From a virus, in the IMG/VR virus record IMGVR_UViG_3300012954_000020, positions 1 to 42,231 of that record: a stretch of 42,231 nt of DNA; one strand, 5' to 3'. Every line of letters begins with the position of its first letter. Position 1 is the first letter of the stretch. The translations under genes and the position numbers were made by a program. Of the stretch, positions 1-20,053 are shown in pieces. The notes beneath the pieces were generated by a model. It was not told the origin of the DNA, ran no database searches, and saw nothing but the letters and a program-made list of their open reading frames with translations.

Positions 1-1007
1 ACTCTTACTTGTGAAAATATATCATCATAGTTTACTTTTGATTCATATGCAACAGTTAATGCTAGTTCAATCAAACCAAGTTTATCTTCTAATGCGTCAA
101 CAATTTCTACGTCTTGTATGTTGTAATCAATAAATTTTTGAAAATCTTTTGTGTAAAAATCTTTAAATGTATCATAAGGATTTTCGTTCTTGTTTTTACC
201 TAGTTCTATTTCGCCAATATAATCTAGTTTATAACTTTCTTGTCTTGTTGGTATAAACCATCTATAACAATCTAGATAATCTAACATTACAATACCTTTT
301 AAAGTATATGTTGTTTGTGGTCTACCTCTTACCATAATCTCGTTCTTTTCAATCATATTCCAAGGCGACATCTTGTTTGCAACTTTTTCATTTGCAACCA
401 ATTTAATTCTATTCATCAAGTAAGGTAAGTCAAAAAATTTAGTATTCCAACCAGTGATAACGTCTGGATAATTTTTTAACCAAAATTTCATAAACTCCAT
501 AAGTAAATGATTTTCTGATTTACATTTTACATAAGTCACATCTGTTCTATCTGTATGATAGTCACCAGTTCCCCATGTTAATATTTGTTTGTTAGTTTGA
601 TTTTTAACTGTAATACAAAGTAATTCTTCTATTGGATTTTCTACATCAGGAAAGCCATCTTCACAGGTAGTTTCTATATCTATTGTAAATATTTTAATAT
701 ATTTTTTATCCCAATCAATCTTATTAGGAAATTGTTCGTTTATATATTGATAATGAAATCTCTCTAGACCATAGATAGGAGAGTTTTGAGTTGCAACATC
801 ACGTCTAAATCTTCTAGCGTCATTGATGTTTTTAAATTTTATAGGATTTAGATTTCTATTATCTAAAGTTTTAAATTTAGATTGATTTTTAGTAAGTGAA
901 TATAATGTAGGACCAAAGTCTATCTTTTCTTTATAGTCTTTGCCATCATGTATACCTCTTACTAGAAGTTTACCTTTGTGTTCTATAACTGATTTATAAA
1001 AGTTCAT
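1..1007 (-). CDS. 43: DNA polymerase gp43, N-terminal part (cut by window edge)
   Basis: This is the first 335 residues of a T4-type family B DNA polymerase; the rest lies beyond the left edge. The visible part is the N-terminal and 3'-5' exonuclease region. Exo I reads DIE at residues 110-112, Exo II ends in FDLPYL with the metal-binding Asp near 194, and Exo III is YNIQD at 296-300. All expected proofreading acidic residues are present. The start overlaps the end of the ferredoxin gene by 14 bases; an adjacent ATG one codon upstream is equally possible, and no clear ribosome binding site separates them. It follows the Sm-like and ferredoxin genes and would be co-transcribed with them. The polymerase domain cannot be assessed here. 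Confidence 0.96.
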   Translation of the reverse strand, partial: MNFYKSVIEHKGKLLVRGIHDGKDYKEKIDFGPTLYSLTKNQSKFKTLDNRNLNPIKFKNINDARRFRRDVATQNSPIYGLERFHYQYINEQFPNKIDWDKKYIKIFTIDIETTCEDGFPDVENPIEELLCITVKNQTNKQILTWGTGDYHTDRTDVTYVKCKSENHLLMEFMKFWLKNYPDVITGWNTKFFDLPYLMNRIKLVANEKVANKMSPWNMIEKNEIMVRGRPQTTYTLKGIVMLDYLDCYRWFIPTRQESYKLDYIGEIELGKNKNENPYDTFKDFYTKDFQKFIDYNIQDVEIVDALEDKLGLIELALTVAYESKVNYDDIFSQVR

Positions 1008-1676: not shown

Positions 1677-3140
1677 TTATTCTTTTTCAACCGGTCTTAA
1701 TCTTTTACTTAATACAAACGTTCTATTAGGGTTGACACCAATATTCATTTGACGCATTAATTCTCTATTTACTAGTAGATCGGAATGTGCTCTTGGTCTA
1801 CTATCTAAACCAACTTCTACCTCTTTATATGTAAAACCATTAAAGGTAATATCCATAAGAATCGTTGGTCTTGTTTCAGATGGCTCTTCACCCTCTGCAT
1901 TTGCTCTAAAAATTTTACTTATACCATGTCTTGGTTTACTATATGTTTTACCATCGTATTTCCATTTAACAATTTTTTCTTTACTTAAAATCTCATCGGC
2001 ATGTAAAGCACAGGCAGCCGCTCCGTTACCCGTATCAAATTTTGCCCTAACTTTTAAACCGTCTTCTAATTCTACCGTTTCTAACCAACCACTTTCTATT
2101 AGTGATTGTCTGTCCCAGTTAGTTCTATCTGATACATAATCTACCAGATATTCCATCATTTTTTCGCCGTCTATTCTACCAGATGGTTCTGGATCAGAAT
2201 AATAATCTTTGTATTGGTAACCTTGATAATCAGCACCTGATCCTGGACTACCATTGATTTCTAAAATGTATGGTTTTTTATTGTTTACTATATGGTCAAC
2301 TCCTACCATATATGCTTTTGAAGCTCTTGAAGCTTTTAAAACTAATTCGTGTTCTTCATCACTTAAAATATAAGGCATTGCCTCAGCGCCTCTATGTGTA
2401 TTTGATCTAAAGTCATATGAGCTATGTACTCTTTTTGTACTTGCAATAATTTTGTTATCTAATACAAAAGTTCTTACGTCAAACTTTGTTTCCATAAATT
2501 CTTGTATTAGTAGTTCAGCACCTAATTTCCACATCGCCTGTACTGTTGCAACCAGGCCTTCATAACTTTCAATCTTAACTACACCAACACCTTGTGTACC
2601 TGTTAATGTTTTTAATATTACAGGAAATTTACCACCAATTAAATCTAAACCTGTTCTTATATTCTTTTCGTTAGATATAAAAGCAGTTCTCGGTGTAGGT
2701 ATACCAAACTTCTCAAATAGTAAAGCTGATGTTAATTTATTATCACAAGTAAGCATAGCAGCTCTTGTGTTTAACATAAATGATTCTGAATTTTGAAAGG
2801 CAGATATTAAAGAAAGGCCAGCCTCATCTTCTACTGCACCACCTCTTGTTATACAAAGAGTATCTTTACCAACAAACGTATGTTCGCTGTTCTTACCATC
2901 GTAATTATAGACCGTAAGTGTCTTTTTATCTTCGTCTTTACCTGTTATGATTGTCGTTTTAGTGTTTACAATAACACATTTAATCTTCTTTTTTATACAA
3001 GCTTTTTCTATAAGTTCAACAGTAGAATCTTTATTAGGTTTATCTGAATCGTTTATAGTAAGTATAGCCACCGTAAATGGTTTATTTTTACGTGACTTTG
3101 TATTCTCTGTTATGTAATCTCTAAACTTCGGTATTTGCAT
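1677..3140 (-). CDS. RimK-like ATP-grasp ligase fused to RimB-like aspartic protease domain
   Basis: The 487-residue protein has two domains. Residues about 22-340 are an ATP-grasp amino-acid ligase close to RimK, the enzyme that adds glutamates to ribosomal protein S6: GTQGVGVV at 181-188, DFRSNTHRG at 243-251 and the metal-binding LEINGSPG at 293-300. Residues about 350-480 resemble the RimB family (so-called ATP-dependent zinc protease, retropepsin-like fold), with the DTG motif at 369-371 and a second conserved stretch near SDLLVNRE at 453-460. In bacteria RimK and RimB are separate proteins acting in the same pathway. The ATG overlaps the end of regA by 20 bases. The likely role is modification of host ribosomes or another acceptor; the substrate is not shown by the sequence. 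Confidence 0.87.
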   Translation of the reverse strand: MQIPKFRDYITENTKSRKNKPFTVAILTINDSDKPNKDSTVELIEKACIKKKIKCVIVNTKTTIITGKDEDKKTLTVYNYDGKNSEHTFVGKDTLCITRGGAVEDEAGLSLISAFQNSESFMLNTRAAMLTCDNKLTSALLFEKFGIPTPRTAFISNEKNIRTGLDLIGGKFPVILKTLTGTQGVGVVKIESYEGLVATVQAMWKLGAELLIQEFMETKFDVRTFVLDNKIIASTKRVHSSYDFRSNTHRGAEAMPYILSDEEHELVLKASRASKAYMVGVDHIVNNKKPYILEINGSPGSGADYQGYQYKDYYSDPEPSGRIDGEKMMEYLVDYVSDRTNWDRQSLIESGWLETVELEDGLKVRAKFDTGNGAAACALHADEILSKEKIVKWKYDGKTYSKPRHGISKIFRANAEGEEPSETRPTILMDITFNGFTYKEVEVGLDSRPRAHSDLLVNRELMRQMNIGVNPNRTFVLSKRLRPVEKE

Positions 3141-3564
3141 TATCAGTCTCTTTTACTACCTTTTTCCCTATGTTATATTTAGCGGATAATATCCACTCTT
3201 TTTTCTCTTTAAATGGTAATACTTTAATTTGTGATAATGGTGCCTTATTTTCCATTGCCGAATCTTTGTTGACAATATCTATTAATTTCCAGTCTTGTAA
3301 TAATACTGCAATCGTATTTCTACGTTGTATATCGTTATTAATAAGAGTTGCTTTCTTTCCGTCTAAAGCAAATAACTCTTTAAAATGTACTATGTAATAT
3401 TTACCTTGCTTGTGTAATATATGACAAGATTGAAATAATGTCTTGTCTTTCCTACTTGCGACACCAATTCTGGTAAGTGTCTCTCTAACTTTTAAAAAAT
3501 CATCTGGTTGAGTTAGAGTGACCTCTAACATGTCTTCCTGTGACCACTTAATTTCTTCATTCAT
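3121..3564 (-). CDS. regA: RegA translational repressor
   Basis: The 147-residue protein matches T4 RegA along most of its length. Shared stretches include FLKVRETLTRIG, LFQSCHILHKQGKYYIVHFKE and the RRNTIAVLLQDW segment. RegA binds start regions of early phage mRNAs and blocks their translation. It is about 25 residues longer than T4 RegA, with a Lys/Glu/Asn-rich C-terminal tail and a short N-terminal addition. It sits between gp62 and the RimK-like gene and not directly next to gene 43 as in T4. Its ATG overlaps the TGA of gp62 (ATGA), indicating translational coupling. Confidence 0.95.
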   Translation of the reverse strand: MNEEIKWSQEDMLEVTLTQPDDFLKVRETLTRIGVASRKDKTLFQSCHILHKQGKYYIVHFKELFALDGKKATLINNDIQRRNTIAVLLQDWKLIDIVNKDSAMENKAPLSQIKVLPFKEKKEWILSAKYNIGKKVVKETDNANTEV

Positions 3565-3953
3565 CTAGTTCTCCCGCCTTTATATGTGGCTTGTTTAATC
3601 TTTTCTAATTGTTCTTTTGTGAGTATTTGTAAAGCCTGCTTTGCCTTCTCATTACTATAACCATAATACTCCTTAACATTTTCCAAATCATGCAGCTTTT
3701 GTTGTTTGATCCACTTACCTCCAAAACGCTTCTTTGGTCTTATACTATTTAGTAAAAATGTAAACTGTATATCCTTATCCATGAAGTGATAACCGTTCAT
3801 TTCATTGGCATGTGGAAGTGTGTCAATAAACATTGATAAACACTTGTTGATTACATATGGTGGGTATTTCTTTTTCCAGGCGATATCGGTGGAGTCCAAA
3901 AGCTTTTCTTTTGTCTCATTAATTGCCTTCAAATAATCTTTCAATTCGTACAT
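3561..3953 (-). CDS. 62: clamp loader small subunit gp62
   Basis: This 130-residue protein has the shortened gp62 form found in marine T4-like phages. The conserved signature is YPPYVINKCLSMF, then a MNGYHFMD segment and RPKKRFGGKWIK. Together with gp44 it loads the gp45 sliding clamp. T4 gp62 is 187 residues. Position, directly upstream of regA, is as in T4. The ATG lies only eight bases after the CCA end of tRNA-Thr and no Shine-Dalgarno is visible, so tRNA 3' processing would leave an almost leaderless message. Confidence 0.85.
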   Translation of the reverse strand: MYELKDYLKAINETKEKLLDSTDIAWKKKYPPYVINKCLSMFIDTLPHANEMNGYHFMDKDIQFTFLLNSIRPKKRFGGKWIKQQKLHDLENVKEYYGYSNEKAKQALQILTKEQLEKIKQATYKGGRTR

Positions 3954-3961
3954 AATAATTC

Positions 3962-4037
3962 TGGTGCCCTTTGTCCGAGTCGAACAGACGACCTACTGAT
4001 TACAAATCAGTTGCTCTACCAGCTGAGCTAAAAGGGC
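3962..4037 (-). tRNA. tRNA-Thr(UGU)
   Basis: A 76-nt cloverleaf with a 7-bp acceptor stem (GCCCTTT/AAAGGGC), D-arm GCTCAGCTGGTAGAGC, anticodon loop TTTGTAA (anticodon TGT), T-loop TTCGACT and an encoded CCA. All canonical features are present. It lies between gp62 and a small ORF inside the clamp-loader cluster and has no visible promoter of its own, so it is probably cut from the replication transcript. The anticodon reads ACA, a codon common in AT-rich genes. Confidence 0.96.
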
Positions 4038-4045
4038 TATTCCTT

Positions 4046-4210
4046 TCATCTAATTCCGTGTCGTTTTTCGTGGTCTCTTTTGCCTTTATTCATGCCCATG
4101 TAATACTCGCCTGGCTCATAATCCCAAACTTTTCCATGATGACCTCTTATGTCAGCCCAAAGCATTCTCAATTTTACTAAACACACTCTAAACAGCGTTC
4201 TTTTTGCCAT
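4046..4210 (-). CDS. small basic protein of unknown function
   Basis: A 54-residue basic protein is predicted from the ATG at 4210 (MAKRTLFRVCLVKL...). It contains aromatic and Gly residues in the middle (WDYEPGEYYMG) and a Lys/Arg/His-rich end. A longer reading from 4267 would overlap the upstream gene by 80 bases and has no better start, so I chose 4210. It overlaps the GIY-YIG-like ORF by 23 bases and ends eight bases before tRNA-Thr. I do not recognise a family. It may be real, because its end is packed tightly against the tRNA. Confidence 0.5.
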   Translation of the reverse strand: MAKRTLFRVCLVKLRMLWADIRGHHGKVWDYEPGEYYMGMNKGKRDHEKRHGIR

Positions 4211-4853
4211 GTTTCTTCTCAAATTCTTCTTGTTGTTTTTGTTTTTCTCTTTCGTTAGCTTTAACAACCTGTATTATATCCCAAGCATAATTACTAACTG
4301 GTACTCGTTGTTCTTGCTGTAATTTTAAAAGGCGTCTGCCTTTTTTCTGGTATTTAGTTAAATAAAACCTTGAGCGTTCTTTACTATATCTTTTGCCTTT
4401 AGCAAAAACACCAGCTCTGGTAACTATCATGGCCACCTCTCCTGGAATATAAGTACAAGGTTTTCTATCGTCTCTAATGTCTTTTGTACCGTCAAGAGTA
4501 CCATATTCATACGTGATATCTTTAACATCATTACTTTTAGTTTTGACCTTGTTCATCACTTCTAATAATATCTTCTCTGCTTTTTGTACATCTTCTATTT
4601 TAGTACCTATCTCAAACTGTTCGGTAGAGGTCTTCCACAATTTATAGTATTTCTTTAAGTATTCTAAAAGCTCGCCTTCAGCTTTAGTTAAGAAGTTAGG
4701 TTTAACTTCTTTTAAGTAATCAAAAGTAATATTGGCGTTTGTAGTTTTATATCTATCTTCTCGCTCTTTTTTATCTGTCGTTTTACCTACTGTCAGGAAA
4801 TATATTCCTGATTTCATGTCTAACTGAAAGAAACCGTATAACCAAGCAATCAT
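4188..4853 (-). CDS. putative GIY-YIG-like (T5orf172-type) domain protein
   Basis: The 221-residue protein begins with a hydrophobic strand, GFFQL, then GIYFLTVGKTT and DRYKTTNAN. This resembles the degenerate GIY-YIG fold of T5orf172-type nucleases, where a VGKT-R pattern is followed by an acidic helix; here AEGELLEYLKKYY and then TSTEQFEIG fit that order. The C-terminal half is Lys/Arg-rich and ends in a charged helix. The ATG overlaps the TGA of gp44 (ATGA). T4 has no gene at this place between 44 and 62, so this is an inserted gene. It could be a homing or repair nuclease, or a catalytically dead relative; the family match is by motif only. Confidence 0.45.
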   Translation of the reverse strand: MIAWLYGFFQLDMKSGIYFLTVGKTTDKKEREDRYKTTNANITFDYLKEVKPNFLTKAEGELLEYLKKYYKLWKTSTEQFEIGTKIEDVQKAEKILLEVMNKVKTKSNDVKDITYEYGTLDGTKDIRDDRKPCTYIPGEVAMIVTRAGVFAKGKRYSKERSRFYLTKYQKKGRRLLKLQQEQRVPVSNYAWDIIQVVKANEREKQKQQEEFEKKHGKKNAV

Positions 4854-5805: not shown

Positions 5806-6471
5806 TTAAAATATAGAGTCAGGTTCTAATGCGATCCAATATTGAACGTTCTTACCTCTAGATATGAAACTAGAAATCTTTTGTTTACTGATTGCCACAT
5901 CGTAATCATCAGGTATCATTTTAAAGTTTTCTGATTTAAAATAAGCAGTAAACTTAACATCTGATTCTATAAGTGGTATAGATACTTCGTTAGAAGTTTT
6001 ATCTTTTTTATCAGAAGCCACAAGATTAATAGTTTTACCATTACCTATAACAGATACATCTGGTAAATTTAACGTAGCAACACCCTTATGTAATTCTGCC
6101 AAGTCATCGTTCTTTAATGTAAACGTGACATGTTTATCTGGCATATTTATTTTGTTAGGTGTAAACACTGTAGATTTATCAGAAAAATAATACTTAATCT
6201 GTTTTCTAGCGTTTTTTGACTCAACGATAGTCATAGAAGCACCACCATTAAATTTAAGTTCAGGCTTACTGAATAAGTCTAATGATCTTAAAAATTTTGG
6301 TAAGTCATAGATAGCAAACTCGCTATCAAACTTCTCTTTAATCTCGGCCTCTGCCAAGATATTTCTCATATTGGAAATAGTTTGTATTTTACTTCCTGGC
6401 TTAATTAATATATTCTGATTTATATCAGAAAAATTTTTAAGCATTGCGATTGTCTCTGTTGACAAGTTCAT
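5806..6471 (-). CDS. 45: sliding clamp gp45
   Basis: At 221 residues (T4: 228) the protein has the gp45 start MNLSTETIAMLKNFSDIN, a DLPKFLRSLDLF segment matching the clamp interdomain region, and the WIALEPDSIF end like T4 ALEADS. The trimeric clamp gives processivity to gp43 and, in T4, activates late transcription through gp55. An AAAAGGAGTG ribosome binding site precedes the ATG. The unusual tRNA-Gly(UCC) and its promoter lie directly upstream, so clamp mRNA may be made as a tRNA-clamp transcript. Confidence 0.94.
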   Translation of the reverse strand: MNLSTETIAMLKNFSDINQNILIKPGSKIQTISNMRNILAEAEIKEKFDSEFAIYDLPKFLRSLDLFSKPELKFNGGASMTIVESKNARKQIKYYFSDKSTVFTPNKINMPDKHVTFTLKNDDLAELHKGVATLNLPDVSVIGNGKTINLVASDKKDKTSNEVSIPLIESDVKFTAYFKSENFKMIPDDYDVAISKQKISSFISRGKNVQYWIALEPDSIF

Positions 6472-6501: not shown

Positions 6502-6575
6502 TGGAGCGGATACTTGGTACTGCCCCAAGTTCTACTGGTTGGAAACCAATCATAATACTTTTATACGATATCCGC
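6502..6575 (-). tRNA. aberrant tRNA-Gly(UCC) or tRNA-like RNA
   Basis: A 74-nt tRNA-shaped sequence. The acceptor stem is a perfect 7 bp (GCGGATA/TATCCGC) with an encoded CCA, the anticodon stem is ATTGG/CCAGT around loop TTTCCAA (anticodon TCC, Gly), and the T-stem is a perfect 5 bp (CTTGG/CCAAG). The T-loop is GGCAGTA where TTCGANN is expected, the D-loop lacks the GG pair, and the D-stem is weak (G-U, U-A, A-U and a U-U mismatch). Standard scanners may miss it. A sigma70-like promoter is placed so that transcription starts one base before the tRNA. It is either a decaying tRNA or a specialised Gly tRNA with altered elbow contacts. Confidence 0.75.
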
Positions 6576-6582
6576 ATTTTTG

Positions 6583-6611
6583 ATCCTATACTAGATCAAT
6601 TAAAAAGTCAA
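6583..6611 (-). promoter_or_regulatory. sigma70-like promoter of the tRNA-Gly(UCC)/gp45 unit
   Basis: TTGACT (6606-6611) and TAGGAT (6583-6588) lie 17 bp apart on the minus strand. The predicted start is at about 6576, one base upstream of the tRNA 5' end. It overlaps no gene and follows the end of the peroxiredoxin gene. Confidence 0.7.
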
Positions 6612-7766: not shown

Positions 7767-7802
7767 GGTAGTTTTCTGAATACAAGGCTATAGAAAACTA
7801 CC
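7767..7802. repeat. 11-bp inverted repeat abutting the hsp20 -35 box
   Basis: GGTAGTTTTCT at 7767-7777 pairs perfectly with AGAAAACTACC at 7792-7802 across a 14-base loop. No U-tract follows on either strand, so it is not a typical terminator. It ends two bases from the hsp20 -35 box, where a repressor or activator could act. Confidence 0.6.
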
Positions 7803-7970
7803 AAAACCGAGCCGCAGCTTTAGTTTGTTTTTTTAAAGTGGTGCGAAACTAAGCGCAAATGCTTAAACAATCCACTGTTTGAGGCACCCTATATGCCTCA
7901 TTTAACGCTGTCATAGGACTTACGAGCAGCCTTGACCATAATATATATATCAATGTATGGCGTTAAATTC
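7803..7970 (-). ncRNA. candidate structured RNA between rpsU and hsp20
   Basis: This gap has no ORF but many nested complementary segments. ATTTAACGC/GCGTTAAAT (7960-7968 with 7900-7908) pairs over 9 bp and encloses about 50 bases. Directly after it comes hairpin GAGGCA/TGCCTC (7881-7899). AGTGG/CCACT (7872-7876 with 7837-7841) then encloses the hairpin TAAGC/GCTTA (7850-7865). An alternative 7-bp pairing, 7820-7826 with 7846-7852, excludes that last hairpin. The region is richer in G and C than its surroundings. It could be a small RNA or the 3' part of the rpsU message. I do not recognise a known RNA family, and strand assignment follows the neighbouring genes. Confidence 0.4.
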
Positions 7971-17476: not shown

Positions 17477-17551
17477 TGGAGCGGGCTATGAGATTCGAAC
17501 CCACGACCTACTCGTTGGCAACGAGTCGCTCTACCACTGAGCTAAGCCCGC
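17477..17551 (-). tRNA. tRNA-Gly(GCC)
   Basis: A 75-nt cloverleaf with acceptor GCGGGCT/AGCCCGC, D-arm GCTCAGTGGTAGAGC, anticodon loop TTGCCAA (GCC), T-loop TTCGAAT and an encoded CCA. It is canonical, unlike the tRNA-Gly(UCC) at 6502. Its 5' end lies two bases after the T-run of an intrinsic terminator and no promoter is seen in between, so its expression would depend on read-through. Confidence 0.96.
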
Positions 17552-17659: not shown

Positions 17660-18106
17660 CTAATGTAAAGTTCCTTCATCATCGTCATCGTAAAAATTCA
17701 TATTATCATCAAAAATCTCGTTAATCTTTTTATTCGCATTTGTTGACAGTTGTACTTTGGCATGTTTTACTTTGTCTTTTGCCAAAGGTATATCTTCGTA
17801 TGTGTCAACCACACCTTGATAACTTCTACTCATGGCGTCATTGGCCGTTGTAATAGTCATTATCTTATCTTTCGGGATAGTTATTTGTTCATCGTCTGTA
17901 TAGGCAGTCCAACGAATCAAAGCAATATAGTCTTTAAATCCAGCCGCCGTAATTTGTGGTACGTATTTAATTTGTAAAGGCCGTTCTATATTGATTGTTT
18001 TATTTTTTGGATCTAATTGTCTTTTAGTAAATTCAACAACAGCGACAATATCATCTCCGTTTACCAACTTAATAATCTTAATGTTATTATCTTGTTTCTG
18101 GTGCAT
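17660..18106 (-). CDS. Sm-like (LSm fold) protein, paralogue 2, acidic tail
   Basis: The 148-residue protein shares with the gene at 1323-1628 the pattern KIIKLVNGDDIVAVV, an aromatic middle strand and IPKDKIMTITTANDAMSRSYQ. It differs in having a longer middle and an Asp/Glu-rich C-terminal tail ending in YDDDDEGTLH. The Sm-like assignment is therefore the same and is partly inference. GATAAATA lies exactly five bases before the ATG, so late transcription would produce a leaderless mRNA. An intrinsic terminator follows, and a plus-strand promoter points at it. Confidence 0.65.
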   Translation of the reverse strand: MHQKQDNNIKIIKLVNGDDIVAVVEFTKRQLDPKNKTINIERPLQIKYVPQITAAGFKDYIALIRWTAYTDDEQITIPKDKIMTITTANDAMSRSYQGVVDTYEDIPLAKDKVKHAKVQLSTNANKKINEIFDDNMNFYDDDDEGTLH

Positions 18107-18584: not shown

Positions 18585-20053
18585 TTTAGTTCTATGTTGT
18601 GTATTTCATAATTAAAATCTTCACTGTTGTAAATATTTATTCTTTCACGAAAGTGTGCAAGTGTATAATTTTCCTTGTCTTTATAACTCATATCGTCTGC
18701 TATGTCGTACAAAGTCGCAGCCGATTTATTATCTTTTAATCTTAAACCTCGTCCAATACTTTGTAAATTTCTTATGCGAGATTTAGAAGGACTAGCAAAA
18801 ATAATGTTATGCAAATTCCGTATATTAATTCCGGTTGAAAAAGTGCCGTAAGAAGCAACAATAATGGCGTTGTCACTTTTCTCCGTAATTTCTCTAATAT
18901 TTTCTCTATCATCTGTTTCAACTCCTCCATGTACATAAAAAACATTTTTATCTTCAGCCTTTTCTTTTATCATTTCGTATAACTCATTACCATGTTTCTC
19001 TACGTATTGAAATAAACATAGAGTATTACCTTGTAAGCTAGAGGCCAAGTTTCTTATGTATTTGTTTCGTTTTTCACTTCTTACTAGGTAATCCATTTCC
19101 TCTTGATAATTCTTATCTTTTATCATGTGTCTAATATCTTTGTCATATTGTAATACTAAACATATAATTTTTAATTCTGCTAATTGTTTTTTCTCTTGCA
19201 ATTCACTTGTAGATACAACTTTATTTACTACGCCAAACAATCCTTCTAACACTAGTTTGTGTGTTTTTGTACCATCTAAAGTACCTGTAAGGCCTACTCT
19301 ATATTTACATTGTTCTAGTTTAGTCATTATTTTTGTCAATGAAACTGCTTTAAATAAGTGTGCCTCGTCACCTATAACCATACCAAACTGTTTAAACCAT
19401 TTTTTTGGTTGATTGTATATAGATTGCCATGTAGATATAATAACGGCTTTATTTGTTTCTTTTTCGTGACCTTGATATATCTTATGTACATTATTCATAT
19501 TCCAGCCATAGTCGCCAAAGTCTTTTGTTAATTGTTCTACTAATGATGTGGTCGGTACTATAATTAAGATTTTCTTGTTTTGTTCTTTTAATCTTAATAT
19601 ATTAAAACGTACTAGTAAATATACTATTAATGATTTACCAGAGGCCGTTGGAGACAACAACATACATCTATTTTTTGTTGTTGCATATATAAATGCCTCT
19701 CTTTGATAGTCTCTTATTTCCATAGGTATTTTAAGAGCCTTTGTAAATGCGTCTACTTTTTTTACATCAACCTTTGTATCTGTAATTTTAGTGCCGTCTA
19801 CTACTTGTATTTTATTATCTTCACACCATTTAAGTATATAAGGATATAAACCGGCATAAATTTCACCAGTTGCATAAGAGAATAATCTTATTTTTCCATC
19901 CCACACTCTGTTTCTATAAGCAGGAACAAACTTATAACCAGGTACCTCAAAACAAAAATACTCTGATAACTCTCTACGTATAGAGGCGTCTGCCTCTACC
20001 TTGAGGTAAACATCGTTTTTTCTATCTACTATAATGTATCTGATATCTGGCAT
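18581..20053 (-). CDS. uvsW: recombination helicase UvsW
   Basis: The 490-residue SF2 helicase has an N-terminal DNA-binding domain (WDGKIRLFSY) and motifs I (SPTASGKS, 134-141), II (GDEAH), III-like GLTGTL and VI QSIGRGLRL. T4 UvsW unwinds branched DNA and R-loops and helps switch replication mode. I start it at the ATG at 20053, which gives TAATG overlap with the preceding stop and aligns with the known N-terminus; the longer reading adds nine unsupported residues. Confidence 0.94.
   Translation of the reverse strand: MPDIRYIIVDRKNDVYLKVEADASIRRELSEYFCFEVPGYKFVPAYRNRVWDGKIRLFSYATGEIYAGLYPYILKWCEDNKIQVVDGTKITDTKVDVKKVDAFTKALKIPMEIRDYQREAFIYATTKNRCMLLSPTASGKSLIVYLLVRFNILRLKEQNKKILIIVPTTSLVEQLTKDFGDYGWNMNNVHKIYQGHEKETNKAVIISTWQSIYNQPKKWFKQFGMVIGDEAHLFKAVSLTKIMTKLEQCKYRVGLTGTLDGTKTHKLVLEGLFGVVNKVVSTSELQEKKQLAELKIICLVLQYDKDIRHMIKDKNYQEEMDYLVRSEKRNKYIRNLASSLQGNTLCLFQYVEKHGNELYEMIKEKAEDKNVFYVHGGVETDDRENIREITEKSDNAIIVASYGTFSTGINIRNLHNIIFASPSKSRIRNLQSIGRGLRLKDNKSAATLYDIADDMSYKDKENYTLAHFRERINIYNSEDFNYEIHNIELK

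Follow-up and report, generated by a model that had tools for sequence, protein, structure and literature searches.

The window, i.e., the whole 42,231-nt stretch of viral DNA that was analysed, carries on its minus strand (6502–6575) a 74-nt gene for a tRNA-Gly(UCC) with an alternative elbow and an encoded CCA end. From its sequence and that of its relatives, the gene most probably provides a phage elongator tRNA-Gly for GGA and GGG codons, transcribed from its own promoter, with a rewired elbow that may allow escape from the host enzymes acting on the elbow. The alternative-elbow structure is well supported and a use in translation is likely; the reason proposed for the elbow swap is speculative.

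Identification of the tRNA Gene

The 5′ end of the tRNA was located at 6575 and its CCA at 6504–6502, and the minus strand from 6575 to 6502 encodes GCGGAUAUCGUAUAAAAGUAUUAUGAUUGGUUUCCAACCAGUAGAACUUGGGGCAGUACCAAGUAUCCGCUCCA. The coordinates in the preliminary description of this DNA were correct, and the encoded CCA was confirmed. On the same strand lie the D-loop AAAAGUA (6556–6562; A14 A15 A16 A18 G19 U20 A21), the anticodon UCC (6541–6543) within the loop UUUCCAA, the T-loop GGCAGUA (6518–6524; G54 G55 C56 A57 G58 U59 A60), and the discriminator U73 with the CCA end (6502–6505). The cloverleaf was scored with the Rfam covariance model RF00005, a check that had been suggested earlier; the score was 39.1 bits (E = 6.8e-5 in the window), above the gathering cut-off of 29 bits, which places the RNA in the tRNA family. 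The score was 93.7 bits with the model R1, whose building set includes the sequence itself. The cloverleaf fold had an energy of −21.6 kcal/mol (z = −2.85), and 2 of 200 shuffles were equally good. The Rfam score, the fold and the covarying stems of the relatives all point to a real RNA gene, as had been claimed. ARAGORN, when run on the window, missed the tRNA-Gly(UCC) at 6502–6575 and called a canonical tRNA-Thr(UGU) (3962–4037) and a canonical tRNA-Gly(GCC) (17477–17551), with no others. The source is a marine phage of the Pelagibacter type, related to the isolates Mosig EXVC030M and HTVC008M.

Conservation of the Element in Related Phages

Related phages had been named as the place to look for the element and for compensatory changes in its stems, and both were found. 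In the closest 40 of 80 gp45 relatives from IMG/VR (76–100% clamp identity), the element occupied the same position. The ten relatives inspected after these had a plain promoter in place of the element, and a few more distant ones carried it again (L051, L054, L056, L078, and L080). A pattern with fixed D-, T- and UCC anticodon loops matched in at least 119 viral contigs. Among 34 distinct copies, 95% of the base-pair cells were paired, and both sides had changed in 14 of the 21 pairs. The covariation score of these copies was 0.615, compared with 0.169 for shuffled sequences and less than 0.1 for slid structures. In the copies fetched by gp45, which were picked without regard to loop sequence, AAAAGUA, UUUCCAA and GGCAGUA were invariant and the stems varied. 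One copy (L089, about 1661–1705) has unusual flanking sequence and a 3′ end other than CCA, and is a possible assembly chimera.

A relaxed or decaying tRNA gene would account for how low the canonical model scores the element and for nothing further. The covariation across four stems, the constancy of the odd loops in the gp45-fetched copies and the conserved promoter all speak against it, and decay, which retains almost no chance of being correct, was rejected on the basis of the stem covariation. The preliminary description had likewise argued against simple decay, and the double substitutions that maintained the stems in the 34 relatives while the odd loops stayed constant bear this out.

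The element was also present in two isolate phages. In Mosig (MT647606.1, locus L318), an alternative-elbow tRNA-Gly(ACC) was found at 7779–7852, at the same locus as in the window and within an ORF that the annotation lists as encoding a hypothetical protein. In HTVC008M (KC465899.1), a tRNA-Gly(ACC) with the loops AGAAGUA and AGCGUUA was found at 91140–91213 (L332:43856–43929), before the S21 gene. Both copies lack a tRNA annotation, and both have A34, which is rare in bacteria for a four-codon box. Mosig also has an annotated tmRNA (SsrA) of its own at 111467–111805.

Promoter and Downstream Gene

The tRNA had been proposed to have its own promoter, and this proposal was upheld. The −35 hexamer TTGACT (6606–6611, minus strand) and the −10 hexamer TAGGAT (6583–6588, minus strand), extended as TATAGGAT, are separated by a 17-nt spacer, and the −10 hexamer lies 7 nt before the tRNA. 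Transcription from this predicted sigma70-type promoter would begin at or just before the first tRNA base. The promoter type was conserved: a TTGACN-15..19-TATAAT-like sequence occurred upstream of 87 of 116 distinct relatives versus 0.4% of shuffled upstream regions, and the leader between the promoter and the tRNA was mostly 7–8 nt long. The T4-type sliding clamp gene gp45 (5806–6471, minus strand; Pfam gp45-slide_C) starts 30 nt 3′ of the tRNA in the same direction. The predicted promoter would transcribe the tRNA together with the following gene.

The position of the element, which follows a promoter after so short a leader and has a same-strand ORF start within 120 nt in 211 of 215 cases, would also suit a cis-acting 5′ mRNA element, in which RNase P and 3′ processing set the 5′ end or the stability of the message. 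The genes 3′ of the elements, however, belonged to 17 unrelated families. Those for gp45 and a peroxiredoxin-like protein led, and a gp45-like gene followed in 129 of 211 cases, a share inflated by the many loci that were fetched by gp45. Because of these 17 families, a gp45-specific signal is argued against, and the earlier suggestion of a processing signal for the gp45 message did not hold. The conserved anticodon and glycine identity, the plain promoter of gp45 in relatives lacking the element, and the occurrence of the elbow in arrays elsewhere without such a layout also weigh against a cis-acting element, which is very improbable. Processing of the downstream message may be a by-product of the tRNA.

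Covariation of the D-loop and T-loop

Nearly all elongator tRNAs are regarded as having the contacts G18–U55, G19–C56, and U54–A58. In the window tRNA-Gly(UCC), G19–C56 alone was retained. The molecule shares with canonical bacterial tRNA-Gly(UCC) (RF00005) the cloverleaf, the glycine identity, U8, A14, A21, U33, G19–C56, the closing pair G53–C61 and the CCA, whereas A18/G55 takes the place of G18/U55, and G54/G58 that of U54/A58. A15/A48 and A60 accompany the swapped elbow, and the variable loop, another difference from the canonical tRNA, has 4 nt and ends in A48. The elbow-forming bases had been described as missing. This was correct for positions 18, 54, 55, and 58, which are replaced in a covarying manner, but not for G19 and C56, which are kept.

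The elbow was surveyed in 198 representatives, obtained after collapse at 90% identity and removal of the tRNAs matching the fetch pattern. A D-loop GG was accompanied by U55 C56 in 129 representatives. D-loops with AG and without GG had G55 C56 in 48 cases and U55 C56 in none, and those with GA had U56 in all six. The three apparent exceptions, in which GG occurred with G55, all read AGG, which permits A18 G19. The association between the D-loop and the T-loop gave a Fisher p value of 5e-29, a figure of the type that related sequences inflate. Because of this kinship, the T-loops were also permuted inside each of seven mixed arrays. Concordance was seen in 85 of 103 tRNAs, whereas the permutation maximum was 75 and none of 20000 permutations reached the observed value. 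The discordant array tRNAs should mainly be those with U55 and no GG, including the GA/U56 kind, and AGG readings.

The combinations at 54/58 in the 198 representatives were U/A (162), G/G (17), A/U (15), and C/A (3). The G/G and A/U elbows carried A60 in 28 of 29 cases, and a purine–purine 15/48 combination was found in 15 of these 29 elbows versus 11 of 141 U/A elbows. In the Arg and Val tRNAs of six loci (L211, L226, L234, L249, L255, and L256), which have the T-loop UUURA and the D-loop GA, 19/56 had changed from G–C to A–U in 6/6. In a 634-kb phage (LR745206; L324:18569–18642, 17899–17970, and 18744–18815), the T-loops AUCGUAA/AUCGUUA were observed with canonical GG D-loops, and 54/58 alone had changed from U/A to A/U. 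Since A54/U58 occurs there in an otherwise canonical elbow, the swaps appear to be modular. Because the changes covary between both loops, docking of the D-loop with the T-loop is most likely preserved via a different set of contacts. The covariation suggests that it involves A18/G55 plus G19–C56; which bases count as 18 and 19 in the GG-less D-loops is itself presumptive.

Glycine Identity and Range of Isotypes

The glycine identity elements G1–C72, C2–G71, C35, C36, and U73 (PMC9976931) were all present in the window tRNA-Gly(UCC) and in 83–85 of 85 alternative-elbow Gly relatives, for which C35 C36 was a selection criterion; G1–C72, C2–G71, G3–C70, and U73 were found in 83–84 of the 85. A mere tRNA mimic, as had been considered, seems improbable given this retention. 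G10–Y25 occurred in 80 and G45 in 73 of these 85 tRNAs, the anticodons of which were UCC (52), ACC (24), and GCC (9). Glycine codons were mostly GGU (62%) and GGA (22%) in the window, and GGU (70%) and GGA (15%) in Mosig. At the same locus, the window tRNA has the anticodon UCC, whereas that of Mosig has ACC, a difference that fits codon reading, since GGA and GGU are the two commonest glycine codons. The canonical tRNA-Gly(GCC) of the window already serves GGU, its most used glycine codon; this, and the share of no more than 22% for GGA, count against the elongator reading.

The alternative elbow was present in phage and array tRNAs of about 18 isotypes. In further viral contigs, the same two loops were found with other anticodons, including those of Thr(UGU), Ala(UGC), His(GUG), Pro(UGG), Lys, Gln, Gly(GCC), and Gly(ACC) tRNAs. 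Many alternative-elbow tRNAs were located in tRNA arrays beside canonical tRNAs, and in some loci they supplied an isotype for which ARAGORN found no canonical tRNA (Thr in L205, L213, and L218; Ala in L202 and L216). Cognate identity elements were kept: G3:U70 of Ala in 3/3 tRNAs, C1:G72 of Pro in 3/3, and G-1:C73 of His in 4/5, the fifth having C73 only. Owing to the wide isotype range and these cognate elements, the alternative-elbow tRNAs probably act as elongators.

The neighbouring genes included those for phage terminase, portal, helicase, and polymerase. The exact Gly(UCC) pattern had no match in 84,980 species genomes, and a host origin was rejected on this ground and on the outcome of a wider pattern. 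The wider pattern gave 12 matches in the species genomes, six of which were tRNA-like by sequence and model score; these six lay in phage-like contigs or tRNA arrays, including those of Chthoniobacter flavus and a planctomycete MAG. Plasmids searched with the Chthoniobacter array gave no match, and the alternative elbow was absent from the named arrays of A511, Luma, and BillNye.

In the pelagiphage contigs, the elbow was distributed differently from elsewhere. Alternative-elbow Gly tRNAs accounted for 50/50 distinct UCC, 24/28 ACC, and 8/15 GCC, and the elbow occurred only on Gly; Thr, Pro, Arg, Leu, Ala, and Asp were canonical. This Gly-only pattern is in part a matter of sampling, given that many contigs were fetched by the Gly pattern, but sampling does not account for the canonical state of the non-Gly tRNAs that those contigs also carry. 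The pattern, including its 50/50 Gly(UCC), together with the retained glycine identity, is what favours a non-translational glycine donor that GlyRS would charge, that would be excluded from EF-Tu, and that some Gly-tRNA-dependent transferase would use. In staphylococci, the non-proteinogenic tRNA-Gly has UU or CU in place of G18 G19, and A49–U65 plus A51–U63 form its signature for EF-Tu escape (PMC4052509). The phage tRNA resembles it in being a tRNA-Gly with an altered 18/19 region. Nevertheless, by comparison with that description, A18 G19 is found here with G19 persisting, the window tRNA has C49–G65 and U51–A63, and the two escape pairs occurred jointly in just 5 of 85 relatives. The staphylococcus-like donor avoiding EF-Tu that had been put forward therefore lost its footing. 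Moreover, beyond the pelagiphages the elbow extends to the other isotypes, and the anticodons vary among UCC, ACC, and GCC as codon reading predicts. A speciality as a glycine donor was rejected because of the isotype range, the same elbow being found on Ala, His, Pro, Thr, Lys, Gln, and Trp tRNAs, and the donor reading as a whole is quite unlikely. As the host of the phage is Gram-negative, no cell-wall role is expected of the tRNA.

Proposed Mechanism and Comparison With Known Systems

The elongator tRNA proposed here would be released as tRNA-Gly(UCC) by normal tRNA processing and, once charged, would read the GGA and GGG codons of the phage. TrmA, TruB, and TrmI modify the elbow bases U54, U55, and A58, respectively. 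Modification sites at the elbow positions and TrmH have been described (PMC7912444). The swap would take away the bases modified by host TruB (U55), TrmA (U54), TrmH (G18), and TrmI (A58). The favoured, though speculative, reason for its selection is that alternative-elbow phage tRNAs may fold without the host elbow modifications and may be poorly recognised by any host enzyme or defence nuclease that depends on the canonical elbow. We know of no defence nuclease that reads the elbow. The general idea of modification bypass or immune evasion is weakened because the non-Gly isotypes of pelagiphages stay canonical.

A decoy or defence sponge, which titrates or resists a host effector targeting tRNAs, is unlikely. 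Phage tRNAs have been proposed to evade anticodon nucleases (PMC10264068), and the toxSAS FaRel2 targets tRNA-Gly and tRNA-Thr (PMC11559606), both of which are isotypes encoded by the window. One phage contig that carries alternative-elbow tRNAs and a full tRNA array also has a polynucleotide kinase gene (L218:13068–14027). However, FaRel2 recognises its targets by the acceptor stem, most of which is retained in the element, and no elbow-reading effector was identified in this analysis.

Beyond the elongator tRNA of the window, it is possible, as a tentative proposal, that A18/G55 with U54/A58, G54/G58, or A54/U58 forms a second self-consistent elbow code for most isotypes in bacterial mobile genomes, which folds free of modification and is unseen by the host enzymes and immune nucleases that read the canonical elbow. 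No report of this alternative elbow was found in the open-access literature, to which the search extended. If true, so large a covarying exception in phage tRNAs would mean that the L shape can be built in another way. Standard tRNA finders would miss functional phage tRNAs, as ARAGORN did in the window. The swap would also give an experimental handle on why phages carry tRNAs, i.e., codon supply versus escape from tRNA-directed host factors.

In eukaryotic tRNA-Ala, A54/A58, R15/A48, and a purine at 60 co-occur and are tied to A34 anticodons, a combination reported to be absent from bacteria and archaea (PMC7566577). The phage tRNAs share the purine–purine 54/58 with R15/A48 and a purine at 60, and the pelagiphage relatives include the A34 Gly(ACC); they differ in having G/G or A/U rather than A/A at 54/58, plus A18/G55. 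The tRNA arrays of phages and mobile elements, which have been proposed to counter tRNA-targeting defence (PMC10264068, PMC12803027), likewise contain phage-borne tRNAs that are distinct from those of the host, and cover many isotypes. Changes in the anticodon loop are described in one of these reports, from the text of which the words D-loop, T-loop, and elbow are absent (PMC10264068). In one phage-like-looking contig, a gene for a TROVE/Ro60-type RNA-binding protein (L230:4945–6645) adjoins a tRNA array (2871–4591) that holds one alternative-elbow tRNA.
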